From IMG/VR virus record IMGVR_UViG_3300044733_000950, positions 1-21,154 of that record: 21,154 bases of DNA. One strand, written 5' to 3'. The DNA comes from a virus. The position numbers and the translations under genes were made by a program. Shown here in pieces: positions 11,996-21,154 of this stretch. Every line of letters begins with the position of its first letter. Positions within the stretch are counted from its first letter, which is position 1. The notes below the pieces were generated by a model, which saw only the letters and a list, made by a program, of their open reading frames with translations, did no database searches and had not been told where the DNA came from.

Positions 11996-12040
11996 AACCA
12001 CTGTGAGTGGTTCCATACCCACTAAGAGTTATGTAACGAA
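11988..12040. promoter_or_regulatory. Divergent control region with nested inverted repeats
   Basis: Between the two arms, TTCGTTACA (11988-11996) and TGTAACGAA (12032-12040) form a perfect 9-bp inverted pair, so one GTAACGAA box faces each arm. Inside them AACCACT (11996-12002) and AGTGGTT (12006-12012) form a 7-bp inverted repeat with a GTG spacer. This is where divergent promoters and a shared operator are expected. No canonical -35/-10 pair was convincing. Confidence 0.55.
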
Positions 12041-12041
12041 T

Positions 12042-12065
12042 GGGGGGAAGGGTAGGGATGGGGGG
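12042..12065 (+). promoter_or_regulatory. G-quadruplex motif in divergent region
   Basis: Four G-runs (12042-12047, 12050-12052, 12055-12057, 12060-12065) are separated by two-base loops AA, TA and AT. This meets the usual intramolecular G4 pattern with very short loops. It immediately follows the rightward GTAACGAA box. The block ATGGGGGGAAGG occurs twice (12040-12051, 12058-12069). Confidence 0.6.
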
Positions 12066-12080
12066 AAGGACAGAACTGTT

Positions 12081-12107
12081 CAACCTCGCTCCTGAGAGCG
12101 AAGGTTG
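12081..12107 (+). promoter_or_regulatory. Bulged-A hairpin before the first rightward gene
   Basis: Outer 5-bp stem 12081-12085/12103-12107, single unpaired A at 12102, inner 6-bp stem 12086-12091/12096-12101, loop CTGA. There is no T-run, so it is not a standard terminator. Its topology is identical to the hairpin at 19815-19841. It ends 35 nt before the ATG at 12143. Confidence 0.6.
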
Positions 12108-12142
12108 CCTAATAGGCTGAAGACACAGGTTAAGGAACACAC

Positions 12143-12406
12143 ATGGCAAAGACAGCAGCATGGCAACGTAAAGAAGGCAAGAACCCCGCAGGCGGTCTCA
12201 ACGCCAAGGGGCGTGCATCTTACAAAGCACAGACGGGTGGAACCCTAAAACCACCTGTGTCAGCCAAGCAAGCAAAGAAGTCACCCAAGTCTGCTGCACG
12301 TCGCAAGTCGTTCTGTGCACGAATGGGTGGCATGCCCGGACCAATGAAAGACTCCAAAGGTCGACCAACCCGCAAAGCACTAGCGTTAAAGAAATGGGAC
12401 TGCTAA
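12143..12406 (+). CDS. Small basic protein, DUF6321-like
   Basis: An 87-residue, Lys/Arg-rich protein with KTAAWQRKEGKNPAGGLNAK, GRASYKAQTGGTLKPPVSAK and RRKSFCARMGGMPGPMKDSK blocks and a C-terminal LALKKWDC. This set of blocks matches a family found in many marine and freshwater phages that I recall as DUF6321. The function is unknown; a nucleic-acid-binding or virion-associated role fits the charge. It is the first rightward gene, has AAGGA ten bases before the ATG, and its stop overlaps the next start (TAATG), forming a three-gene operon of basic proteins. Confidence 0.75.
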   Translation: MAKTAAWQRKEGKNPAGGLNAKGRASYKAQTGGTLKPPVSAKQAKKSPKSAARRKSFCARMGGMPGPMKDSKGRPTRKALALKKWDC

Positions 12407-12585
12407 TGGCAACCAAGAAGTCAGGTGTAAACGCCGCAGGCAACTACACCAAACCAGAAATGCGCAAACGTCTGTTCAATAAAATTAAAGCAGGCTCAAA
12501 AGGTGGAGACCCCGGTGAGTGGTCAGCCCGCAAAGCACAACTATTAGCAACCCAATACAAAAAGGCTGGCGGGGGATACAAGTAA
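12406..12585 (+). CDS. Small basic protein with SARKAQLLA motif (59 aa)
   Basis: I start this at ATG 12406, which overlaps the upstream stop as TAATG, rather than at the frame opening at 12394. The 59 residues contain KPEMRKRLFNKIKAGSKGGD, PGEWSARKAQLLATQYKKAG and a final GGYK. The (K/R)IKAG-x-KGG-x-x-G-x-WSARKAQLLA-x-x-Y pattern is a widespread family of tiny basic proteins in phages and large DNA viruses, possibly DUF5872, but I am unsure of the number. The helical, basic character suggests DNA or RNA binding. It overlaps the next gene in the same way. Confidence 0.7.
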   Translation: MATKKSGVNAAGNYTKPEMRKRLFNKIKAGSKGGDPGEWSARKAQLLATQYKKAGGGYK

Positions 12586-12839
12586 TGGCACTTGCGAAGT
12601 CACAGCAGTCACTCAAAAACTGGGGTGCAGAGAAATGGCGTACCTCAGACGGTAAACCAGCCAAACGAAAAGGTGGCACAACACGCTACCTGCCAGACGC
12701 TGCATGGGACAAACTAACACCAGCCCAAAAGGCTGCAACCAACCGCAAAAAGATAGGCGCATCCAAGCGGGGTAAGCAATTCGTAGCCAACACACTTGCC
12801 GCAAAAGCAGCAGGTAAAGCAGCACGTAGCAAAAAATAA
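12585..12839 (+). CDS. Small basic protein (84 aa), phage family of unknown function
   Basis: Start at ATG 12585 (TAATG overlap with the previous stop). The upstream extension in the same frame has no ribosome site. The 84 residues contain SQQSLKNWGAEKWRTSDGKP, GTTRYLPDAAWDKLTPAQKA and ATNRKKIGASKRGKQFVANT and end in a Lys/Ala-rich tail. The WGxxKWRTSDGKP...RYLPxxAWxxLTPxxKAATNRKK pattern recurs in marine virus proteins of unknown role. Together with the two preceding genes it forms a cassette of small basic proteins closed by an intrinsic terminator, so the trio is probably co-expressed. Confidence 0.7.
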   Translation: MALAKSQQSLKNWGAEKWRTSDGKPAKRKGGTTRYLPDAAWDKLTPAQKAATNRKKIGASKRGKQFVANTLAAKAAGKAARSKK

Positions 12840-12866
12840 GATAAAACCTATATTATATAAGGAAAA

Positions 12867-12899
12867 GGTACCCTATTTGTCTATGGGTGCCCCCTTTTT
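12867..12899 (+). terminator. Intrinsic terminator after the basic-protein operon
   Basis: GGTACCC (12867-12873) pairs with GGGTGCC (12885-12891; one G-U), with an 11-nt loop, followed by CCC and a five-T run at 12895-12899. It lies 27 nt after the stop at 12839. Confidence 0.7.
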
Positions 12900-13112
12900 G
12901 GAAAATGAGTTCTACGGCTCTGACTAGAATCCATCCATCGAAGTGACGGGTGCACGGGCCACCTACCTCCCTACCCTCTTGTGACTTCAGAACTGCACGA
13001 ATACAGGGCAATAATGCGCCCAATGCGTAGAACCAATAATGCGCCCATGCCATTAGTGAAACAATGGTGCGCCGATAAGAACGGTGCTTGACTAACAAAG
13101 GTAGGTAAGCCT
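12900..13112 (+). other. Non-coding stretch with a 13-bp direct repeat
   Basis: No convincing gene is present here. AATAATGCGCCCA occurs at 13010-13022 and 13035-13047, a 25-bp period. Short frames on both strands lack ribosome sites. A promoter for the following module is expected here, because a terminator lies upstream, but no clear -35/-10 pair was identified. The second repeat copy could be a regulator site. Confidence 0.5.
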
Positions 13113-13268
13113 ATGAGTGATGCAATGCGTGAATACATTGAGCGTTGTAATCGTATTGGTAGCCGTGTGAATGGTGCAGTGGTTCGCATTATCGCACGCC
13201 GTACTGGTGAAGACACAAGTTGGTATGACGCAAGCGTTTGCACCAATGAGTGTTGCGATAAGCATTAG
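13113..13268 (+). CDS. Small hypothetical Cys-containing protein (51 aa)
   Basis: The frame from ATG 13113 to TAG 13266-13268 gives 51 residues starting MSDAMREYIERCNRIGSRVN and ending with a Cys cluster (C43, C47, C48 plus C12). AAGGTAGG lies about 9 nt before the start. A basic helix (VVRIIARRTG) precedes a loop with W37 and the Cys cluster, so metal binding is possible but not a known pattern. It stands alone: a terminator is upstream and the first palindrome downstream. No family is recognised. Confidence 0.5.
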   Translation: MSDAMREYIERCNRIGSRVNGAVVRIIARRTGEDTSWYDASVCTNECCDKH

Positions 13269-13290
13269 TTGTTACTTAGTACCAACGCAT

Positions 13291-13312
13291 AACTGAGACA
13301 GTTATCTCAGTT
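13291..13312 (+). promoter_or_regulatory. Palindromic element copy 1
   Basis: AACTGAGA (13291-13298), spacer CAGTTA, TCTCAGTT (13305-13312). It is 22 nt after the 51-residue gene. A short hairpin AGTGA-GTAA-TCACT follows at 13324-13337. It is part of a six-copy set. Confidence 0.75.
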
Positions 13313-13383
13313 GTGCTTTGGCTAGTGAGTAATCACTCGGCGTGTTACCGACTAACACAAATACAAACACAAGGAGAGCCATC

Positions 13384-13896
13384 ATGGCAACGAAAGCAAA
13401 GCAAGTAAAGAAGACAACAGCGTTCTACACGCAACACAGCCAACTCATAATCAAGGGTTCACACCTTGTCATTGACGGTTGGTTAGGTGCAGGTAAGGAA
13501 GCAATTAGTAAGAAGATGAGCGCAAGCGATTATGCATTGCACTCATTGTCACCATCACTCAAAGGTGAAGCACGATATTCAGAGACAACAATTCGCACCG
13601 AAGTTGGTGTTGCAATTCGTGCTCTGAAGAAGTACAAGACCATTGAGAAAGTGAAAGACGCATTGACCGAAGAAGTGGCAAAGCGTGGTGGCAACTTCAG
13701 CACCGAGAGTTGGGCATCAGTCAAGTACATGCTCAAGGGCACTGGTCAGCGAGAAGCAGGCGAGAGCAAGAACAAGAAGAAGAAGAGTGCAAAGCGTGTT
13801 GAGACAACCGTTCTACGCAAGAAGATGAAAAATGCTGGAGTTCCACAGCGTTACATTGACTTGACAGTGTTCATCATTGAGAACGAAGGCAAATAA
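13384..13896 (+). CDS. Hypothetical basic protein (170 aa)
   Basis: I choose ATG 13384, with AAGGAG about 8 nt upstream, over an ATG at 13342 without one. The 170 residues are Lys-rich: HSQLIIKGSHLVIDGWLGAG near the N-terminus, a helical centre (TTIRTEVGVAIRALKKYKTI), a very basic stretch KNKKKKSAKRVETT at about 130-145, and a C-terminal helix GVPQRYIDLTVFIIENE. It could bind nucleic acid, but no known fold or motif is recognised. Its stop codon lies inside palindrome copy 2. A CA-rich, unstructured leader precedes it. Confidence 0.6.
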   Translation: MATKAKQVKKTTAFYTQHSQLIIKGSHLVIDGWLGAGKEAISKKMSASDYALHSLSPSLKGEARYSETTIRTEVGVAIRALKKYKTIEKVKDALTEEVAKRGGNFSTESWASVKYMLKGTGQREAGESKNKKKKSAKRVETTVLRKKMKNAGVPQRYIDLTVFIIENEGK

Positions 13897-13916
13897 CTGA
13901 GACGGGTATCTCAGTT
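13895..13916 (+). promoter_or_regulatory. Palindromic element copy 2
   Basis: AACTGAGA (13895-13902), spacer CGGGTA, TCTCAGTT (13909-13916). It overlaps the TAA stop of the 170-residue gene. Confidence 0.75.
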
Positions 13917-13917
13917 G

Positions 13918-13989
13918 TAACTCGGTGTGAGTTACCGCAACATTGTGTAGCCCTCTGCATAGTGTTGCGTCATGTTCACACCCGTGAGC
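13918..13989 (+). ncRNA. Three-hairpin structured leader
   Basis: Directly after palindrome copy 2 come three hairpins: TAACTC/GAGTTA (13918-13923/13929-13934); a 15-bp stem 13936-13950/13955-13969 with three G-U pairs and a CCCT loop; and GTTCAC/GTGAGC (13974-13979/13984-13989, loop ACCC). The long stem is much better than chance. It may be a structured 5' leader of the 62-residue gene or a processed small RNA. Confidence 0.5.
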
Positions 13990-14011
13990 AAATACAAAAG
14001 GAGAAACAGAA

Positions 14012-14200
14012 ATGAATTGGTTCGGACTATTCACTATCGGAATGATTGTGGTGCTTGCAGTTTGGGGCTTCGCATTCGAGTTTGGTTACGAGAAAGCAGA
14101 GAAAGATTGGACTATGAGTGATGAGTGGATTGCTCGTCAGGAAATGGAAATGCGTAACTGGAGTAAGTACAACCACCCAACAAACAAGGACTGGAACTGA
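14012..14200 (+). CDS. Small membrane protein (62 aa)
   Basis: A 62-residue protein with one N-terminal membrane helix (about 5-25, GLFTIGMIVVLAVWGFAFEF), then GYEKAEKDWTMSDEWIARQE and a polar, aromatic tail. It should be anchored with its charged C-terminus in the cytoplasm. AAAGGAG lies about 8 nt before the ATG, after a three-hairpin leader. The TGA stop is inside palindrome copy 3. It is the only gene of its unit and comes just before the amidoligase genes. A role in changing the host envelope is possible but only by proximity. No family is recognised. Confidence 0.6.
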   Translation: MNWFGLFTIGMIVVLAVWGFAFEFGYEKAEKDWTMSDEWIARQEMEMRNWSKYNHPTNKDWN

Positions 14201-14216
14201 GATAGTTATCTCACTT
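14195..14216 (+). promoter_or_regulatory. Palindromic element copy 3
   Basis: AACTGAGA (14195-14202), spacer TAGTTA, TCTCACTT (14209-14216, one change). The core TGAGATA/TATCTCA is a perfect palindrome around GT. It overlaps the TGA stop of the 62-residue gene. Confidence 0.72.
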
Positions 14217-14241
14217 CCACTACACAGAAAGAGAAACAGAC

Positions 14242-15057
14242 ATGAATAACCAAGTAGCAATTTTGCGTAGTTTTATCCACCTAATGAACAATGCTGACGA
14301 ATTATCAAAGCATGAACTTCTTCAAGAGTTGGAAGATTTTGCTCGTGATGAACTCAGTGTTCTTCGCCCATACTCAAGTAGTTTCCGTGATTATTTCAAG
14401 TTTGGCCACGGTGTCTACGACAGAGCACCTTTGTATCTCAATCAAAGTGATAGAGGTGACACAGCGTTTACTTATGGCTCACAGCCACCTGTAATGGGGT
14501 TTGAGTTAGAACTAGAAGCAAGCAAGCCAACACCTCATGCACTTGAGTTAGAGGAAATCGCTGCGAATATTCTTTCTTACACGGAAGATGTGATGTGTAA
14601 GCGAGATGGTTCATTGCAACATGGGTTCGAAATTATTTCGCAACCTGCAACATATTTCTACTACGAAAATCATTTCAACTGGAGTTGGCTCAAAGAAGTA
14701 ATCAAATCAGATTTCAAGGTCAATGGAATTGGTGAGCGTGGTTTTCATATTCATATCAACAGGGCTTCATTTGTTGATGAAGCACATACGCAAAGATTTG
14801 CTGACGCAATCGTTGCTGATGTGAAAATGTTTCAGAGATTATCAGTAGATAGTTTCTTTGCACCTGAACACCGTTACTGTGCAACAAGAACTTCCAATCC
14901 AGATGACAGTATTGGTAGATACTGTGCAGTGAACTTATTGCACAGAAATACTGTTGAGGTTCGTTGCTTTGAGCCAGTGCCCACAAAGGGTCAAATTCTA
15001 ACTTACATGCAATACATGTTAGACACACAAGAAAAAACAAAAGGAGAACAGCAATGA
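14242..15057 (+). CDS. Amidoligase-family protein, copy 1
   Basis: A 271-residue protein with the signature blocks of phage amidoligases (COOH-NH2 ligases of the glutamine-synthetase-like superfamily): MGFELELE (85-92), KRDGSLQHGFEIISQP (120-135), GFHIHINR (167-174) and GRYCAVNLLHRNTVEVRCFE (225-244). Such enzymes are predicted to use ATP to join a carboxylate to an amine; Glu, His and Arg in these blocks would bind ATP-Mg and substrate. Residues 1-80 form an unrelated helical N-terminal extension. All blocks recur in the 15511 gene, so the two are paralogues. It starts a three-gene unit; its stop overlaps the next start (ATGA). Substrate is unknown. Confidence 0.8.
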   Translation: MNNQVAILRSFIHLMNNADELSKHELLQELEDFARDELSVLRPYSSSFRDYFKFGHGVYDRAPLYLNQSDRGDTAFTYGSQPPVMGFELELEASKPTPHALELEEIAANILSYTEDVMCKRDGSLQHGFEIISQPATYFYYENHFNWSWLKEVIKSDFKVNGIGERGFHIHINRASFVDEAHTQRFADAIVADVKMFQRLSVDSFFAPEHRYCATRTSNPDDSIGRYCAVNLLHRNTVEVRCFEPVPTKGQILTYMQYMLDTQEKTKGEQQ

Positions 15058-15206
15058 CAAGTAGTTACATCAAGATGCAACTCAAGCAAATCAGAGCAAC
15101 ATTGGATAACGCAGAGACTGATATTCAGTTGTTGCAAGAAGAGAACAAGCGTCTGCTCAAGCAAATTGCAGAACTAACGAAAGAAATGGAGAGCGTAAAT
15201 GAATAA
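15054..15206 (+). CDS. Small coiled-coil protein (50 aa)
   Basis: A 50-residue frame starting inside the stop of amidoligase 1 (ATGA), with AAGGAG upstream. The whole length is helical with a leucine-zipper-like heptad pattern: KMQLKQIRATLDNAETDIQL, then LQEENKRLLKQIAELTKEME. It should dimerise as a coiled coil and could be a partner or scaffold of the amidoligase. It overlaps the next gene by 8 nt. No known family is recognised. Confidence 0.6.
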   Translation: MTSSYIKMQLKQIRATLDNAETDIQLLQEENKRLLKQIAELTKEMESVNE

Positions 15207-15375
15207 GACAACCAAAACAGCATTGTATGCAATGAAGAAAGATGAACTCGTTGAGTTCGCATGGAAGATGGTCAAGGCATACAATCAGTCACAAGAAGAA
15301 CGAGATTACCAACGCAGACTGTTAGAGTTTGCATTGCGTAAAGCAGGTGATGTTCACGCAGAACAAGTTGCGTGA
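15199..15375 (+). CDS. Small helical hypothetical protein (58 aa)
   Basis: A 58-residue frame, ATG 15199 to TGA 15373-15375, overlapping the coiled-coil gene. The sequence is helical and charged: MNKTTKTALYAMKKDELVEF, then AWKMVKAYNQSQEERDYQRR and LLEFALRKAGDVHAEQVA. The Leu/Val positions are compatible with a helical hairpin. It ends the amidoligase 1 unit, and palindrome copy 4 follows 14 nt later. It may be a partner of the coiled-coil protein; no motif identifies it. Confidence 0.55.
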   Translation: MNKTTKTALYAMKKDELVEFAWKMVKAYNQSQEERDYQRRLLEFALRKAGDVHAEQVA

Positions 15376-15389
15376 GCACCGCTCATACA

Positions 15390-15411
15390 AACTGAGACAT
15401 GTATCTCAGTT
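15390..15411 (+). promoter_or_regulatory. Palindromic element copy 4
   Basis: AACTGAGA (15390-15397), spacer CATGTA, TCTCAGTT (15404-15411); the arms extend to 9 bp (15389-15412). A small TGAGC/GCTCA hairpin (15373-15385) lies just upstream, overlapping the stop codon. Confidence 0.77.
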
Positions 15412-15416
15412 TGCGT

Positions 15417-15464
15417 GGGCGAGAGTGCATCAGTATTCCCCTATTTATTGGTGCATTCTCGCTC
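15417..15464 (+). ncRNA. 19-bp hairpin after palindrome copy 4
   Basis: Arms 15417-15435 and 15446-15464 pair over all 19 positions with four G-U pairs, around a 10-nt pyrimidine-rich loop. All changes keep pairing at the RNA level, so it probably acts as RNA. The 3' part of the left arm and the start of the loop read CAGTATTCCC, which also occurs at 19757-19766. No T-run follows. Confidence 0.6.
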
Positions 15465-15510
15465 ATGACATTCCGTTATGAGAAACAAACAACAAACAGA
15501 AAGGGCTATC

Positions 15511-16545
15511 ATGCCACTAAATGACAACATAGAGTACAGAGACTGCTACAACTGTGGTGAAACCATGGATGTAGACGACATGTACGCAAACGAATACGAC
15601 GACAACTTGCGTTGTTGTGATTGCAATAGCGACTACGAGCGTGATTGCGAAGCAGAGTACGAGGCAGAACGAGAGGAACACAATCTCATTCACAGTTACT
15701 CGTACAAGCCGAGTGCAATCTTCCTCAACGACGACGGTCACAAGTCGTACTACGCAACTGTTCCAGATGCAAACTCACGCCGTACATCTTTGTACATGGG
15801 CTTTGAGTTGGAGTTGGAGACAGGTCGTTTCCCAACGAGAGATTGTGCACAGTTTGTGCTTGAGACAATCAACACGGAAAGCAACGACATTGTGTATCTC
15901 AAAGAAGATGGCTCATTGGAAAACGGGTTCGAAATTGTTTCGCACCCAATGACATTGGGCTTTGCAATGGAACACTTTGCATGGGATGGTATTAGTGGTC
16001 TCATCAAGCGTGGTTGCAAATCATGGGATGCAGGTACTTGTGGTCTGCATGTTCACTTGTCACGCTCTGCATTCAGAGACGAGAAGCATCTGTTCAAGTT
16101 CTTCAAGTTGATACTTGATAACGCACCAGATGTGAAGCGTTTCGCAGGTCGTGACAGCGAGCGTTGGGCTAACTTTGACAAGGGTTATTTCCTCAACGCA
16201 TGGAATGAGTACAACGACGATGGCAACTATGTCAGTCGTACCAACGACTCGTTGATGAAGTTTGCAAAGAACGAAAGTCGCAATGACAATCGTTACTGTG
16301 CTGTGAACTTACAGAACCGTCACACCGTTGAGTTGCGTTTCTTCAAGCCATCACTCAACCCTAAGACTGTTCAGGCTGCTTTGCAGTTCTGTGATGCAGT
16401 CTTCAATTACACAGAGACAGAGTGCGACACTAAGAAAGTTATGTCTGGAAACGCTTTGGCGTTTCGTTCATTCCGTTCATGGGTTGCCACGCAAGAGCGT
16501 TACGCCTTGCTCTCTACTCGTATCGCAGAGCGTTGCGATAACTGA
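15511..16545 (+). CDS. Amidoligase-family protein, copy 2, with N-terminal Cys cluster
   Basis: A 344-residue paralogue of the 14242 gene, started at ATG 15511 (AAAGGG upstream) rather than ATG 15478. The N-terminus has C12-x2-C15 and C35, C36, C38, a probable zinc site absent from copy 1. An acidic helix follows. The amidoligase core then has MGFELELE (96-103), KEDGSLENGFEIVSHP (131-146), CGLHVHLSR (177-185) and RYCAVNLQNRHTVELRFFKP (261-280). The His/Arg block is the expected CGLHVH form. An insertion at about 212-258 is missing from copy 1. Predicted ATP-dependent amide-bond formation; the substrate is unknown. It is a single-gene unit between palindromes 4 and 5. Confidence 0.82.
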   Translation: MPLNDNIEYRDCYNCGETMDVDDMYANEYDDNLRCCDCNSDYERDCEAEYEAEREEHNLIHSYSYKPSAIFLNDDGHKSYYATVPDANSRRTSLYMGFELELETGRFPTRDCAQFVLETINTESNDIVYLKEDGSLENGFEIVSHPMTLGFAMEHFAWDGISGLIKRGCKSWDAGTCGLHVHLSRSAFRDEKHLFKFFKLILDNAPDVKRFAGRDSERWANFDKGYFLNAWNEYNDDGNYVSRTNDSLMKFAKNESRNDNRYCAVNLQNRHTVELRFFKPSLNPKTVQAALQFCDAVFNYTETECDTKKVMSGNALAFRSFRSWVATQERYALLSTRIAERCDN

Positions 16546-16561
16546 GACATGTATCTCAGTT
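16540..16561 (+). promoter_or_regulatory. Palindromic element copy 5
   Basis: AACTGAGA (16540-16547), spacer CATGTA, TCTCAGTT (16554-16561), identical to copy 4. It overlaps the stop codon of amidoligase 2 and is followed by a CA-rich unstructured leader. Confidence 0.77.
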
Positions 16562-16610
16562 TCTTTACATCACAAATCAAACAAACAACAAACAAAGAAA
16601 GGAACACAAT

Positions 16611-17627
16611 ATGTGTTTACTAACATTCATTCCTGATTATGTCTCTCCAGACATGGACAGGTTCAGGACAGCAGCGAAAGCAAATCCAGATGGCTTTGGT
16701 TTCGCAATATCAACAGGCAAGAAGATTGTGACTTATCACAGTATGAACTTTGATGAGGTTGCAAACAAGTTCATTGACTTGCGACGAACACACAATGGTC
16801 CTGCAATCTTCCACTTCCGTTGGGCAACCCACGGTAGCGAGACTGTTGCCAACTGTCACCCATTCTTCTTGGGCAAAGACACACAATCAGTCGTTGGTCA
16901 CAACGGCATTCTTCCAGTTGCCATTCCCAAAGGTGATGTACGTTCAGATACGAAAGTGTTTGCACAAGATATCATGCCGGGAGTTGGTGGCATCACTTCA
17001 CTTGATGATGATGATTACTACAAGAAACTAGAAGCATGGGCTACTGGTTCTAAGTTGGTATTCCTCACAGTCAATGAAGATGCCAAGCAAGACTGGTACA
17101 TTCTCAACGAGAAGTCTGGTCATTGGGACAAGGACATGTGGTGGTCTAACTACTCATACGAAGAAGTTGTATACAAGACTTACGGTTCCACTTCATACAA
17201 GTCAAGTGGCAGTCTTTGGGGTTACGACGACTGGGACTATGGCTACAACAAGACCACATACGCTTCGTCGTGGGATAACAAGACTGATGCAGGCTTGTAC
17301 ATTCCTGACTACGACGACGAACTTGAGTATCTTGCAGAAGAGCAGACACAACAGTTTGATGTGTTCACTACGCACATTGACGACAATACGCAACTCATTG
17401 AGTGTTACAACTGTGCTCACGCACACAAGACACCTGCTGGTGTATTGGAAACACATTGTGATGAGTGCGGTGGTTGTCACTTCTGTGGTGCACAGTATCC
17501 ATGTGCATGTTGGTCAGCCATCTATCAGATATACGACCTTGAGGCTTTCAACGAAGATATCTACAATGCAAATGCTGTAGTTGTCCCAGCCAAATCACAA
17601 TCAACCACACACCCAAGTTACTACTAG
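16611..17627 (+). CDS. Class II glutamine-amidotransferase-like protein with C-terminal zinc ribbon
   Basis: A 338-residue protein. After Met removal, C2 would be the N-terminal nucleophile of an Ntn-hydrolase amidotransferase. Supporting blocks are NPDGFGF (25-31), HFRWATHG (68-75, as in GlmS RWATHG), NCHPF (81-85), VGHNGIL (95-101) and SDTKVFAQDI (112-121). Such domains take ammonia from glutamine. The family core ends near residue 165. A Tyr/Trp/Asp-rich linker and a Cys-rich end follow (C265, C268, C283, C286, C289, C292, C298, C300). No synthase domain is fused, so an amidoligase could be its partner. AAAGGAA precedes the ATG. It opens a long unit ending at 19723. Confidence 0.82.
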   Translation: MCLLTFIPDYVSPDMDRFRTAAKANPDGFGFAISTGKKIVTYHSMNFDEVANKFIDLRRTHNGPAIFHFRWATHGSETVANCHPFFLGKDTQSVVGHNGILPVAIPKGDVRSDTKVFAQDIMPGVGGITSLDDDDYYKKLEAWATGSKLVFLTVNEDAKQDWYILNEKSGHWDKDMWWSNYSYEEVVYKTYGSTSYKSSGSLWGYDDWDYGYNKTTYASSWDNKTDAGLYIPDYDDELEYLAEEQTQQFDVFTTHIDDNTQLIECYNCAHAHKTPAGVLETHCDECGGCHFCGAQYPCACWSAIYQIYDLEAFNEDIYNANAVVVPAKSQSTTHPSYY

Positions 17628-17634
17628 GAGAAAC

Positions 17635-17784
17635 ATGAACCAAGAAGAGCGGTACGCATACTACCTCGCTGCATTTCAGCGAGGGTTTGCACAAAACAAT
17701 ATCCGACTGAATGAAGTCACATTTGATGACCTCATTCCTGACTCACTCAAAACAGAAACAAACACACAAGGAGAAAGCAAATGA
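17635..17784 (+). CDS. Small hypothetical protein (49 aa)
   Basis: Start at ATG 17635 with AGGAG six bases upstream, seven bases after the amidotransferase stop; the longer TTG frame from 17581 is rejected. The 49 residues (MNQEERYAYYLAAFQRGFAQ, then NNIRLNEVTFDDLIPDSLKT) are acidic with one amphipathic helix. The stop overlaps the next start (ATGA). No known family is recognised. Its position suggests co-expression with the amidotransferase. Confidence 0.55.
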   Translation: MNQEERYAYYLAAFQRGFAQNNIRLNEVTFDDLIPDSLKTETNTQGESK

Positions 17785-18314
17785 CAACAATCAAACTAAT
17801 CCCATCAACAATGGAATTCGAGGTATCTGTAGATAGTGCCTCAATGCCATCATTGTTCAGTCAGTCAATGGAAACAACCATTATTGAGGAAGTGGAACGA
17901 CATGTAAACGGTCGCATTCCAAATCATCAGTCAGTTGTTGATGATGTGTCTTCAACGATAATGGAAGACCGGGACTACACACGCAAAGTGCGTAACTGGG
18001 TTCTGGAAAGCATTGACTACTCACAGATAATTAGTGAGGTTGGTAGTAATCTTGATTACCAACAACTCATTGACCTAACAGCACCACTGTGGGAGAACGA
18101 AATGTTCTTGCGTCATCTCATGAATAACAACCGTTTCAGGAACTTGGTGAACACTCAAGTACAGGCGAACATCTCCTCAACCTTTGATATCTCCACAATT
18201 AGGGACATGGTTGATGAGAAAGTTGAGCGAGTTACAACCAATCTTTCCAACGAGATTGCAGAGAAAGTGCTCAAGGTTATTCAGAACCGATTGACAGCAG
18301 GTTCAGATGTTTGA
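17781..18314 (+). CDS. Hypothetical helical protein (177 aa)
   Basis: A 177-residue protein, mostly helical and acidic. Visible landmarks are an N-terminal beta-like start (TTIKLIPSTMEFEVSVDSAS), then helices with VVDDVSSTIMEDRDYTRKVR, NRFRNLVNTQVQANISSTFD and EKVERVTTNLSNEIAEKVLK. The last helix has coiled-coil spacing. AAGGAG precedes the ATG, which overlaps the upstream stop. It overlaps the WhiB gene by 8 nt, so the two are probably coupled. No family or catalytic residue is recognised. The repeating pattern of 30-40-residue helical segments might form a structural or adaptor protein. Confidence 0.6.
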   Translation: MTTIKLIPSTMEFEVSVDSASMPSLFSQSMETTIIEEVERHVNGRIPNHQSVVDDVSSTIMEDRDYTRKVRNWVLESIDYSQIISEVGSNLDYQQLIDLTAPLWENEMFLRHLMNNNRFRNLVNTQVQANISSTFDISTIRDMVDEKVERVTTNLSNEIAEKVLKVIQNRLTAGSDV

Positions 18315-18558
18315 GCCTGTGACGATAGACTTTACAGAAGCAAACTGTAAGTCTCAGCCAACTGTGTGGTGGTTTCCAGAATGGCCACCAACCAAACAGA
18401 AAATGAAAGAATGGAAGCAAGCAAAAGCAATTTGCTCTGAATGCTCACTGAAAGTTGAGTGCCTCGCTTACGGCAAGGCAACCAACTCATGGGGCATTTG
18501 GGGTGGTATCACACTAACCAACGGCAAAGCCGACTACAGAAAGAATAAAAAGAAATGA
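18307..18558 (+). CDS. whiB: WhiB-family iron-sulfur transcription regulator
   Basis: An 83-residue protein with the four WhiB cysteines: C14, then C43-x2-C46-x5-C52 (C-x28-C-x2-C-x5-C). The diagnostic G-I-W-G-G turn is at 63-67, followed by a basic tail (KADYRKNKKK) that should contact DNA or the sigma factor. WhiB proteins bind a [4Fe-4S] cluster and act with the primary sigma factor. They are restricted to Actinobacteria and their phages. The best-studied phage member, WhiBTM4 of mycobacteriophage TM4, interferes with host WhiB2 and cell division. Here it is embedded in an overlapping operon and could redirect host or phage promoters. Confidence 0.9.
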   Translation: MFEPVTIDFTEANCKSQPTVWWFPEWPPTKQKMKEWKQAKAICSECSLKVECLAYGKATNSWGIWGGITLTNGKADYRKNKKK

Positions 18559-19082
18559 ACACACCAATCAACTATTCAGAAAAGTTTGGACAAACTCTGC
18601 AAGAGATTGACCAAGCAATAGCAAGCAAAGTAGAAAGCGACACAACAGAACCATTCGACCTAGGCAACACAATGTTATTTGCTGTTGATTATGTCCGTGG
18701 TGAAGTTCCAGCAATCAGAAAGATTGCAGAACACTCTGATGTGTACGAAATGCTTGACGATACATTCAACGCTGTGTTGTTGCTTGACTCTGGTTACAAC
18801 GGCTTTGCTGTTGTTACTTGTGGTTGGGCTGCACCAATCAGGAAAGATGATGATGCAGATGAAATTGCACCATCACAACACCCTGAGCGTAGGCGTGTGC
18901 GTCTCATGACAATGTGCCACAACGGAAAAATGGGTTCTTCTATCCGATTTACGGATGAAGAAGCCGTTACATACGACGAAGGTAACGCAATGGGCTCATT
19001 AGCAAGTGCCATGCAAGACATGTACGACATTGTTCGTGCAATGAAATCAGCATCTATTCAGAATGAAAGGCAACTACCGTGA
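18555..19082 (+). CDS. Hypothetical protein (175 aa)
   Basis: A 175-residue acidic protein, coupled to whiB by an ATGA overlap and to the next gene by GTGA. A beta-rich central section holds FNAVLLLDSGYNGFAVVTCG followed by WAAPIRKDDDADEIAPSQHP, then ERRRVRLMTMCHNGKMGSSI. It ends with a helical segment (ASAMQDMYDIVRAM). The TxGWAAPx...PSxHPERRRVRLxxxV pattern occurs in uncharacterised phage and actinobacterial proteins as far as I recall. The function is unknown; the HPERRR motif suggests phosphate or nucleotide contact but this is only a guess. Confidence 0.6.
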   Translation: MNTPINYSEKFGQTLQEIDQAIASKVESDTTEPFDLGNTMLFAVDYVRGEVPAIRKIAEHSDVYEMLDDTFNAVLLLDSGYNGFAVVTCGWAAPIRKDDDADEIAPSQHPERRRVRLMTMCHNGKMGSSIRFTDEEAVTYDEGNAMGSLASAMQDMYDIVRAMKSASIQNERQLP

Positions 19083-19300
19083 GTAATCGCAAAGATGAAC
19101 CAACCCTTGAGGTGACACTAACTCTTTCTGAGTTACGTGCTGTCGTCAAGTCTCTGGCTATCGGCGTAGACCAACTGGCAAAGAAAACCCAGCGTCTAGG
19201 TGATGGTCGGAGAGCAGACACAACTCATGCAGAGTTGGAAGAACTTCTGTCCGCCAAAGGCGAGATGGAAGAAGTCCTATTGGAAGCACTAAGGGGGTAA
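19079..19300 (+). CDS. Small helical hypothetical protein (73 aa)
   Basis: A GTG-started 73-residue protein with AAAGG upstream, overlapping the preceding stop. It is entirely helical and charged: EVTLTLSELRAVVKSLAIGV, DQLAKKTQRLGDGRRADTTH and AELEELLSAKGEMEEVLLEA. It probably forms a helical hairpin or coiled-coil dimer. The lysin gene starts four bases after its stop. No family is recognised. Confidence 0.6.
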   Translation: MSNRKDEPTLEVTLTLSELRAVVKSLAIGVDQLAKKTQRLGDGRRADTTHAELEELLSAKGEMEEVLLEALRG

Positions 19301-19303
19301 CAC

Positions 19304-19723
19304 TTGTTAGCAAAAATACTTATTTCAGTTTCATTAGGTGTGGGGGGCTTCGTGCCCCCCACTTCTTTTACCAAGCATGACATTCCAGAGCCGGTTGAAA
19401 TCCCTGCCTCTGCCTTGTGTCCTCAGTGGTGGCAAACCGCTGTTGATGCAGGATGGAAACCGTCGCTTCTACCGACACTGGATTATCTGATGTGGCGAGA
19501 GAGTAGGTGCAACGCAAATAGTCACAACACCGCAGACCCAATGGGTGGTTCAAGAGGATTGGTGCAAATCAATGGCTTCTGGACACCATGGTTGGCTTCT
19601 AAGGGCATTGTGAAGCGTTCTGAGGGGCTGTTCGGTCCTTACCGCAACCTCAGGTCAGCACTTGCCATCTACAACTACGCAGACGCCCGATATGACAACG
19701 GGTTTGGTCCGTGGAACTTGTAA
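19304..19723 (+). CDS. Secreted lysozyme / lytic-transglycosylase-like lysin
   Basis: A 139-residue protein started at TTG 19304, with AAGGGGG eight bases upstream; no later start has a ribosome site. The signal-peptide-like N-terminus (LAKILISVSLGVGGFVPPTS) leads to a compact lysozyme-like domain: LPTLDYLMWRESRCNANSHN with a probable catalytic Glu in WRESRC, then GGSRGLVQINGFWTPWL and a C-terminal ALAIYNYADARYDNGFGPW. These are the ES, GLxQIN and AxxxY landmarks of SLT/lysozyme-type muramidases that cut peptidoglycan. It ends the amidotransferase-whiB unit. An intrinsic-terminator-like hairpin lies inside its signal peptide codons. A wall-modifying role other than lysis is possible. Confidence 0.75.
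   Translation: MLAKILISVSLGVGGFVPPTSFTKHDIPEPVEIPASALCPQWWQTAVDAGWKPSLLPTLDYLMWRESRCNANSHNTADPMGGSRGLVQINGFWTPWLASKGIVKRSEGLFGPYRNLRSALAIYNYADARYDNGFGPWNL
19340..19369 (+). terminator. Terminator-like hairpin inside lysin signal-peptide codons
   Basis: A 9-bp perfect stem GTGGGGGGC/GCCCCCCAC (19340-19348/19354-19362) with loop TTCGT is followed by TTCTTTT. It has the form of a strong intrinsic terminator, 36 nt after the TTG start codon. It could attenuate lysin transcription or mark the true end of the upstream operon. Confidence 0.65.
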
Positions 19724-19724
19724 A

Positions 19725-19746
19725 AACTGAGACAGGTATCTCACTT
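19725..19746 (+). promoter_or_regulatory. Palindromic element copy 6
   Basis: AACTGAGA (19725-19732), spacer CAGGTA, TCTCACTT (19739-19746, one change as in copy 3). It begins two bases after the lysin stop. Confidence 0.72.
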
Positions 19747-19753
19747 GTAACCA

Positions 19754-19802
19754 CCCCAGTATTCCCTCTCATTGTCTGCCACAATGGGGGGGAAAGGGGG
19801 GG
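19754..19802 (+). ncRNA. Long G/C-strand hairpin after palindrome copy 6
   Basis: A 14-bp stem (19762-19775/19781-19794, with G-U pairs, loop CTGCC) is extended by four C-G pairs (19754-19757/19799-19802) across a small internal loop. The right arm has two runs of seven G. The left arm carries CAGTATTCCC, shared with the hairpin after palindrome copy 4. Confidence 0.55.
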
Positions 19803-19814
19803 CAAGACACTTCC

Positions 19815-19841
19815 GCACCGTCGCCAATGGGCGACAGGTGC
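19815..19841 (+). promoter_or_regulatory. Bulged-A hairpin before the Cas4-like nuclease gene
   Basis: Outer 5-bp stem 19815-19819/19837-19841, unpaired A at 19836, inner 6-bp stem 19820-19825/19830-19835, loop AATG. The topology is the same as at 12081-12107. The loop and first stem base contain an in-frame ATG (19827) of the downstream gene. No T-run follows. Confidence 0.6.
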
Positions 19842-19868
19842 TCACTTACATCACAGAAAAGAGAAGCA

Positions 19869-20738
19869 ATGCGTATAGAAAACGATAATGGAAGTTCCGT
19901 AGACCGAATCTACATCCGTCAGTCTTGGCTTGGTGACGCACTCATGTGTCCTGAGCGTGCAAGACTGACAGCCCTTTACCCTGAAGAACGTCGTGAGAAC
20001 GACTCAGCGATGATGGGCACAGCAGTACACACAGGCATTGAGTCTGTGTTGAAGAATGAAATCAGCCCAAGCGAAATCGGTGAGCGTTCTGTTTATGCGT
20101 TTCGTTCCAAAGAGTTAGAACTGGAACAGGCTGGCAAGGAAATCAACATTACTAACACCGACCCGAAGAACTGGGACAAGCACATCAACTCAATGGCAGA
20201 AGCATGGACTAGAGATATCTACCCTCATGTTCCATTGGGTGGGATAACAGAGTTCAAGTTTGAGGCAAAGGTTGCTGATGTAGAGAACTCTTTGTGGCAG
20301 TACGAACTTTGGTACGAAGGCACAATGGATTACTTCCACCCGGAAAGTATTTGGGACTGGAAGACTGCGGCTCGAAAGTATTACGAAGCCGAGAAGCAAT
20401 CACAAAACATTCAGTCGTCTGTTTACGCTTGCGCTGCAACCCGACTTGGGTTGATTGATTACACGGTGAACTTCAACTTCGGTGTGATGATTCGTAATGC
20501 TTCATCAACTGGTCAGATAGTGAACGTGACACGCACAGAAGAGCATGACAATTGGATTACAACTCAGACAACATCACTCGTCAATAGCGTACTATTGGCA
20601 CAAGGTCATTTGCCATCACAACGATGGCTCATGAACGACCAGCATCACCTCTGCTCACAGCGTTGGTGTTCAGTCTGGTCAAAATGCAAAGGCTCCATAA
20701 TCGGGGCACAAACTACAGATGCCGAGGAGGCAAACTAA
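19869..20738 (+). CDS. RecB/Cas4-like PD-(D/E)XK nuclease with iron-sulfur cysteines
   Basis: A 289-residue protein started at ATG 19869 (AGAGAAG upstream); an in-frame ATG at 19827 sits in a hairpin and lacks a ribosome site. Motifs: CPERARL with C27, GTAVH (H54), GTMDYF (D154), WDWKTA (D163, K165), Q182-x3-Y186, and C-terminal C262, C267 and C273. One N-terminal and three C-terminal cysteines around a RecB-type core are the plan of Cas4/AddB-like exonucleases with a [4Fe-4S] cluster. It probably resects DNA ends for phage recombination or replication. No CRISPR array or cas1/2 is in the window, so a CRISPR role is not implied. Its stop overlaps the next start. Confidence 0.8.
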   Translation: MRIENDNGSSVDRIYIRQSWLGDALMCPERARLTALYPEERRENDSAMMGTAVHTGIESVLKNEISPSEIGERSVYAFRSKELELEQAGKEINITNTDPKNWDKHINSMAEAWTRDIYPHVPLGGITEFKFEAKVADVENSLWQYELWYEGTMDYFHPESIWDWKTAARKYYEAEKQSQNIQSSVYACAATRLGLIDYTVNFNFGVMIRNASSTGQIVNVTRTEEHDNWITTQTTSLVNSVLLAQGHLPSQRWLMNDQHHLCSQRWCSVWSKCKGSIIGAQTTDAEEAN

Positions 20739-21154
20739 TGGATAAGGACAGAGCAATCATTACCCAAGTGTCAGCAAAGATTTCCGCTGACTTAGTAGAC
20801 AAGAGCGCAGGCACAGCCGAGAAACTCGGTGAGTTCGCACTCTTGTTTGATTCAATCAATAGCATCATGATGGAAACCATCTACGGTGCACAAGCAGAAG
20901 CAACAGCAATTGAGCAGAACAACTACATCGTTGAGAAAATCAAGGAAGAGTTGGGTGCAACACAAGTTGTGACTTCAGCAAGCCCAGCACCATTCACAGG
21001 TGTAACCATTGTTGGCAAGCAACACGGTCCAATTCCAGAGTGGCTCATCAAAGCGTGCAAGCGTGATGGTGTAAGCAAGGTGTACGACAATCGTGACGGT
21101 TTGGAACTCAACCCGAAGCGACCATCCTTCAAGGCAGTAGATGCTGAGAAGGCT
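20738..21154 (+). CDS. Hypothetical protein, possible ssDNA-binding partner (partial)
   Basis: The ATG at 20738 overlaps the nuclease stop (TAATG), with GAGGAGG upstream. 139 residues are visible and the frame is open at the right edge. The N-terminal helical part (TAEKLGEFALLFDSINSIMM) is followed by a Ser/Ala/Pro linker and a domain with IVGKQHGPIPEWLIKACKRD, then GVSKVYDNRDGLELNPKRPS. The HGPIPEWL...VYDNRD...NPKRPxFK block appears in phage proteins encoded beside recombination nucleases, as I recall, and may be single-strand DNA-binding. That assignment is weak. Coupling to the nuclease gene suggests a shared recombination or replication job. Confidence 0.6.
   Translation, partial: MDKDRAIITQVSAKISADLVDKSAGTAEKLGEFALLFDSINSIMMETIYGAQAEATAIEQNNYIVEKIKEELGATQVVTSASPAPFTGVTIVGKQHGPIPEWLIKACKRDGVSKVYDNRDGLELNPKRPSFKAVDAEKA

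Follow-up and report, generated by a model that had tools for sequence, protein, structure and literature searches.

The viral DNA analysed here, IMG/VR virus record IMGVR_UViG_3300044733_000950 (the window, which is the whole record of 21,154 nt and belongs to the linear class, often a fragment), carries in its rightward module six copies of a 22-bp dyad. We propose that these dyads are operators at gene boundaries, bound by a dimer of the protein encoded between the first two of them (gene A) and regulating their own operon, likely via elongation; we hold this proposal to be probable, well short of certain. Comparison of sequences established the sites with their geometry, and it showed that they lie at stop codons, occur together with gene A and change in concert with it, whereas the binding of the gene A protein to double-stranded DNA, as a dimer, and its action on elongation are what we infer.

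The dyads of the window and their counterparts in relatives

The pattern AACTGAGA-N6-TCTCA(G/C)TT was found on the + strand at 13291, 13895, 14195, 15390, 16540 and 19725, and the exact scan agrees with the original prediction that the six copies lie there, on the same strand, with none in the left arm of the window. The whole-window scan gave 12 strand-matches (both strands of the six places) against a shuffle mean of 0.04 and a largest shuffle value of 2, and no additional copy was present in the window at up to three mismatches. Four copies have the right arm TCTCAGTT; the other two, at 14195 and 19725, have TCTCACTT. The sites and gene A are as follows.

13291..13312, + strand: site 1, dyad AACTGAGA-CAGTTA-TCTCAGTT, 22 nt past the stop of gene 13113-13268; gene A starts 71 nt on
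13384..13896, + strand: gene A, 170 amino acids (aa), predicted all-helical, helix-turn-helix (HTH)-like at most; flanked by sites 1 and 2, proposed dyad-binding protein
13895..13916, + strand: site 2, shares bases with the TAA that ends gene A
14195..14216, + strand: site 3, includes the TGA with which gene 14012-14200 ends; its right half-site is the variant TCTCACTT
15390..15411, + strand: site 4, 14 nt past the stop of gene 15199-15375
16540..16561, + strand: site 5, holds the TGA stop of the amidoligase gene 15511-16545
19725..19746, + strand: site 6, 1 nt past the stop of a lysin-like gene; right half-site variant TCTCACTT

Of the four copies said earlier to overlap or touch a stop codon, three (13895, 14195 and 16540) share bases with the stop codon of the gene before them and the fourth (19725) nearly touches one, beginning 1 nt past it; the copies at 15390 and 13291 begin 14 and 22 nt past. 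The statement that every unit is delimited by a copy was too strong: several close or overlapping junctions (e.g. 17627/17635, 18307-18314 and 19079-19082) and the gap 12839-13113 at the left edge of the module are without a dyad, and at the 19300 junction another, GC-rich hairpin (19340-19362) stands instead.

Genes on the + strand encode a WhiB-like protein, an amidoligase and a PD-(D/E)XK nuclease, and a class II glutamine amidotransferase-like gene gave a weak family match under the cut-off. The WhiB-like gene is presumably a sign of an actinobacterial host. With the amidotransferase-like protein as query, 47 relative loci were obtained, and hairpin surveys together with a position-aware scan showed some kind of dyad at orthologous places in 28 of them. 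These locus counts overstate independence, because several loci are near-copies (e.g. L056/L057/L059, L067-L071 and L078/L079). An exact-pattern scan of IMG/VR for the arms of the window (GAGA type) gave nine stretches from seven contigs, and in the relative G010 (39,757 nt) all six exact dyads lay inside the orthologous module.

Across relatives the constant core was the dyad TGA(T/G)A-N6-T(A/C)TCA, with a spacer of fixed length and free sequence, running from CTGCGG to TTTAAT. The arms varied between genomes and were near-constant within each genome. The GAGA type was shared by L040-L042 with the window, a GATA type was present in L043-L051, L083 and others, and further arm types were AGTTGATA (L054, L056-L059 and L061), AACTCATA (L066) and GTGTAAGA (L063/L064). 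L039, whose arms are GATA at sites 1-3 and GAGA at sites 4-5, is an evident recombinant, and L099 is similar. The one-sided variant TCTCACTT was kept at sites 3 and 6 in the GAGA genomes. By consensus arms 131 copies were chosen, 84 of them distinct, weak matches in groups D, E and F (mostly with three mismatches) being dropped by hand; the site lists for stop and start offsets, in-place changes and stem lengths were hand-picked from the position-aware scan.

When spacers of 3-11 were scored in 29 loci, 60 of 64 distinct TGATA pairs had a spacer of exactly 6 (three had 7 and one had 4), as did 16 of 22 TGAGA pairs. These 29 are the protein-similarity loci, with the window included and L050 and L046 among them; six loci found through the N6 pattern itself stood in an earlier 34-locus count and were left out of the repeat. 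Reversed-half controls gave 1-3 each in the 34 loci. The arms are symmetric and the spacer is at times inverted in relatives, and the description of the element as directional was only partly right. An exactly inverted spacer relative to related genomes was observed at site 1 of L039 (5709) and at site 5 of L049 (5314) and L050 (8596); template switching in the palindrome could give such inversions.

The motif scan of the window and its relatives showed that the sites concentrate at gene ends: 90 of 98 distinct sites began between -36 and +6 nt from a stop (stops of open frames of at least 45 codons), compared with 18% (1907/10,800) of random positions drawn between the first and the last site. 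For the 70 distinct copies with a stop found, the offsets ranged from -36 to +6, and the distance to the next start was 25-150 nt (75 copies), a much looser relation; in several copies the left arm itself provides the TGA. The gap before the amidotransferase gene measured 51-84 nt in 26 dyad-bearing loci and -13 to 12 nt in 18 dyad-less loci. A wide gap was present as well in L063/L064 (52) and L081 (47), which have another dyad elsewhere in the module.

Gene A and its concerted change with the sites

A profile of 12 gene A homologues was compared with the stretches recovered by a second IMG/VR scan, in which the pattern AACTGATA-N6-TATCAGTT gave 79 stretches with a GATA dyad. A gene A homologue was present in 20 of the 22 stretches with at least two GATA dyads and in 2 of the 57 with one; the two multi-copy stretches without it are pieces of 1.6 and 2.0 kb, and the two single-copy stretches with it are pieces of multi-copy contigs. 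Counted by contig, 20 of 21 multi-copy contigs had gene A. Some of these contigs had supplied the profile and seven had not (L113, L117, L128, L141, L143, L164 and L175): all seven carried gene A (E 3e-29 to 8e-24), placed between two dyads, of which the second overlaps its stop or begins 1 nt after it. In the GAGA-type scan gene A was found in six of seven contigs. Among the relative loci, the profile found gene A where dyads of the window family are present and the place is covered, the sequences of L046, L055, L066 and L085 having dyads and ending before that place. It gave no match in 19 relative loci without the window dyad family, 13 of which hold both the left neighbour and the amidotransferase gene; among the 19, L069 is not long enough to tell, and the dyad of L081 is the other one.

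In genome pairs with flanks at least 23/28 identical, the half-sites differed in 6/25, 1/10, 0/13, 40/78, 4/7 and 5/11 pairs at sites 1-6, respectively. The half-site type also varied with one residue close to where the longest predicted helix of the gene A domain begins: TGAGA occurred with TIRT in 6/6 genomes, and the 22 TGATA genomes never had T (0/22), reading TIRQ, TVRQ, TMAQ, TIRL, TIEL or TIRN, i.e. with residue Q, L or N. This comparison used 25 different protein sequences, with GAGA and GATA labels entered by hand; the TIRT/TIRQ split requires only one or two changes on the tree, and for this reason the covariation is suggestive only. The helix may resemble recognition helices of the GntR type.

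The replacement of both partners is more telling than this residue. In L063 and L081 this part of the module encodes another protein (mutual identity 36%, pairwise E 4e-13), which in these comparisons is unrelated to that of gene A or very distant (aligning gene A to the L063 protein with hhalign gave a non-significant E of 0.13). The two loci have in common the dyad TAAGAC-N-GTCTTA, which is located at the stop of that protein's gene, upstream of it (by about 90 nt in L081 and by some 730 nt in L063) and ahead of the amidoligase gene; it is present in this part of the module also in L064. On this evidence the gene A protein and the dyads appear to change together from phage to phage. Gene A evolves much faster than the surrounding genes, the proteins of the window and L040 being 94% identical for the amidotransferase-like protein and 46% for gene A. 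We observed also two alternative C-terminal tails of gene A, that of the window being nearly identical to the tail of L044 and unlike that of most relatives, which suggests domain shuffling.

In the proposed mechanism each palindrome would be a DNA operator made of two 5-bp half-sites, TGA(G/T)A, facing across 6 bp and placed 11 bp apart centre to centre, i.e. one helical turn, and a dimer of the gene A protein would occupy each dyad. The near-fixed length and free sequence of the spacer would fit the need of such a DNA-bound dimer. Having one site ahead of its gene, another where the gene ends and more at most of the remaining open junctions in the operon, the gene A protein would regulate the module and itself. 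The most likely target would be the elongating RNA polymerase, through a roadblock or polarity gate at gene boundaries. Action on elongation is favoured because the sites lie just past stops in a same-strand run and because no sigma-70-like promoter was found in the leaders (12001-21154: 10 found and 11.3 expected, in a scan covering the sigma-70-like type). The relatives would then form a natural series of probable regulator/site pairs (25 protein sequences, several half-site types and one swap of protein and dyad) in uncultured phages, probably of actinobacteria, which lets the evolution of DNA-binding specificity be followed.

RNA structure in the leaders and competing explanations

The aligned leaders showed an extended hairpin at site 1 and, at each of sites 2 and 4, a dyad hairpin with a second, long one after it. 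The predicted RNA features are given below.

13272..13332, + strand: RNA hairpin that extends around site 1; 25 pairs in the consensus, 12 of them changed on both sides (13 sequences)
13924..13982, + strand: long RNA hairpin, the second of the leader at site 2; consensus of 23 pairs
15414..15467, + strand: RNA hairpin directly after site 4, 22 pairs
19762..19794, + strand: hairpin, the second of the leader at site 6, with slight covariation (a single pair of the entire consensus has changes on both sides)

Site 1 had 37 cells in which both sides of a pair had changed and site 2 had 28, of which 32 and 23, respectively, lay outside the dyad, and none of 500 shuffles reached these totals. At site 2 all five covariation measures were above all 500 shuffles and at site 1 four of five, the level of further pair types at site 1 being reached by 8 of 500; covariation at both sites was above that of slid versions too. 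The consensus energies of the sense and antisense strands were -57.5 and -37.4 at site 4, -30.4 and -16.0 at site 1, -36.0 and -24.1 at site 2, and -27.8 and -18.5 at site 6, and the sense energy was lower in 13/13, 12/13, 13/13 and 11/11 single sequences at sites 4, 1, 2 and 6. Dinucleotide shuffles reached as low a strand difference in 0/390 cases at site 4, 6/390 at site 2 and 17/390 at site 1, while composition explains the difference at site 6 (62/330 shuffles as low). This sense folding beyond shuffles argues that the leaders of sites 1, 2 and 4 are selected as sense RNA. Counts of G-U versus A-C pairs are biased to structures predicted with G-U allowed, and the shuffle strand test is the fairer one. 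After site 4 (15380-15481) the heptamer GTGGGCG can pair upstream, in the lower dyad stem, or downstream, in the 22-pair hairpin, a possible RNA switch. A UNCG tetraloop, considered for spacers of the GATA group (CUUCGG and CUGCGG), was rejected, since it fails in other groups and for CUGCGA.

These structures bear on the main rival of a DNA operator, which is an element acting as RNA: a sequence-specific boundary hairpin, bound by a phage protein (perhaps that of gene A) or by host RNases and serving to process, protect or time the polycistronic mRNA. The original suggestion of an RNA processing site has real support in the sense folding beyond composition at sites 1, 2 and 4 and the paired changes at sites 1 and 2, mostly outside the dyad. 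The site 1 stem moreover extends by at least four pairs (G-U included) in 16 of 18 rows of differing sequence, and two of the three sites of the unrelated L081 dyad have flanks complementary to each other. An RNA role alone, however, leaves the constant half-sites unexplained, together with a loop of near-fixed length and free sequence. The five inner pairs contain no G-U in 84 distinct copies (an outcome favoured by the consensus-arm selection), the stems at sites 2, 5 and 6 mostly end at 8 pairs, conserved C-C mismatches are found at sites 3 and 6 of the GAGA genomes, and the strand difference at site 6 stays within composition. We consider an RNA role alone rather unlikely; an RNA-level role may coexist with the DNA operator. 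A single 22-bp sequence would then be a dual-code boundary element, at once dyad operator and apex of a structured leader RNA, on or beside stops where translation termination, folding and a DNA-bound gate meet, its protein and sites being swapped as a specificity set; we advance this combination tentatively, as a possibility that we doubt more than we believe.

The remaining explanations account for less of the data. The dyads could be operators for a protein of the host or for another phage protein, with gene A a mere linked neighbour, as its association and concerted change with the sites are no proof of binding. Gene A nevertheless recurs with dyads in genomes that have otherwise diverged, and where the protein is another one, in L063 and L081, so is the dyad; we find this reading improbable. 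Intrinsic terminators without a T-run, one of the first candidates, became less likely still: the dyads do form hairpins directly past stops, but these AT-rich stems have 8 pairs with 2-3 G-C, no terminator-like match on the + strand was found at the six sites (one was found on the - strand, 13916-13895), and the dyad sequence is constrained far beyond the needs of a terminator, so that hardly any weight is left to it. The phage also has a separate GC-rich hairpin with a T-rich tail. Boundaries for recombination or mobility, used in the exchange of gene units, would account for the delimiting of units, the recombinants L039 and L099 and the spacer inversions, but the sites keep the same orthologous places and gene A has no recombinase similarity in the libraries searched, apart from one VIA row (Z 3.2) to a Mu end-binding subdomain; this origin seems to us very improbable. 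Promoters of phage polymerases of the T7 and N4 types were also considered and set aside because the arms change symmetrically and the extended stems use G-U.

Several observations weigh against a DNA operator bound by the gene A protein. Eight of the 98 sites have no detected stop nearby, the spacers of L073 mix 6 and 7, and site 3 shows no in-place change. The TIRT/TIRQ covariation, besides its few changes on the tree, involves a gene in close linkage with sites 1 and 2; the GATA pattern itself had brought in six of the 22 GATA genomes, and the recombinants L039 and L099 have GATA at the gene A sites and GAGA farther off. A pure DNA operator needs none of the leader RNA structures, and at sites 1 and 4 the dyad is prolonged into a longer RNA stem. 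Searches of Pfam, PHROG, PDB sequences and INPHARED with gene A gave no usable match; the best were Pfam Tab2-like_C (E 0.018), an RNA-binding protein domain, and PHROG 11010 (E 0.027), each for one member of 12. Foldseek with two gene A models returned nothing under E 1, and the best VIA rows, Z 3.2 for the Mu end-binding subdomain (C-terminal part) and Z 3.1 for a TOG array, are too low for use. The AF2 model has helices at 47-54 and 67-84, and HTH-like denotes here a predicted helix pattern only, because no known DNA-binding family and no Foldseek or PDB match was found.

Comparison with known systems and further observations

The stoperators of Cluster A mycobacteriophages (L5, TipsytheTRex) are, in excerpts of PMC9283540, asymmetric 13-mers bound by a monomer, with more than 20 per genome including promoters and an orientation tied to transcription. 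Like them, the dyads are multiple sites in short intergenic spaces of same-strand genes (here 90/98 near stops), and both systems would rely on a phage-encoded regulator with a predicted HTH, for gene A a helix pattern only. Unlike them, the present element is a 22-bp dyad with both half-sites conserved, lies beside stops in one module and numbers about 4-6 per genome (six in the window and six exact in G010). Gene A gave no PDB sequence or fold match to the Cluster A repressor type (HTH plus stoperator domain), and an absent match is no proof. The early label of stoperator-like is apt in that the sites come with a probable cognate protein whose gene lies between sites 1 and 2, and inexact in that the sites form symmetric 22-bp dyads, not asymmetric 13-mers, in one module where this can be viewed. 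If the sites act on elongation, they would represent a second, dyad-based solution to the task of mycobacteriophage stoperators.

In Cluster K mycobacteriophages, ESAS elements are imperfect 17-bp inverted repeats with a spacer of 4-13 bp upstream of start-associated sequences (SAS), which are confined to the right, non-structural genome halves (excerpts of PMC3203893). The dyads resemble ESAS as inverted repeats around a variable spacer with a half-site consensus specific to the genome group or subcluster; unlike ESAS, which lie just upstream of SAS and starts, they are 25-150 nt from starts, stop-associated and nearly always have a 6-bp spacer. The 17-bp dyad of the Cluster O mycobacteriophages, with 34 copies in Corndog distributed genome-wide, about a third within genes, is described as of unknown function in the corresponding excerpts (PMC4351075). 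It shares with the present element the many copies of one short dyad with invariant arms and variable centre, and differs by its 7-bp inverted repeats, 3-bp centre and genome-wide distribution, compared with a spacer of 6 and one module here. The controller C.Kpn2I binds within its own transcribed region and stalls RNA polymerase (excerpts of PMC6237814), a demonstrated precedent for the proposed block of elongation by binding in the own unit; unlike the phage element, it belongs to a restriction-modification system, is a different protein and has its site inside its own gene. No earlier description of the element was found in the literature searched, a search that had most subscription papers outside it.

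The window gave no Rfam match at gathering score and nothing in a tRNA search. In G010 (L087/L088), an open frame of 2662 aa was observed at 14524-22512 in window orientation; a 918-aa portion of it had no match in the Pfam run, which covered 10 proteins of this genome. The hairpin at 19340-19371 of the window consists of GTGGGGGG-CTTCGTG-CCCCCCAC followed by TTCTTTTAC and is also present in several relatives; it falls within the listed start of the lysin-like frame, whose real start may be later (19377).

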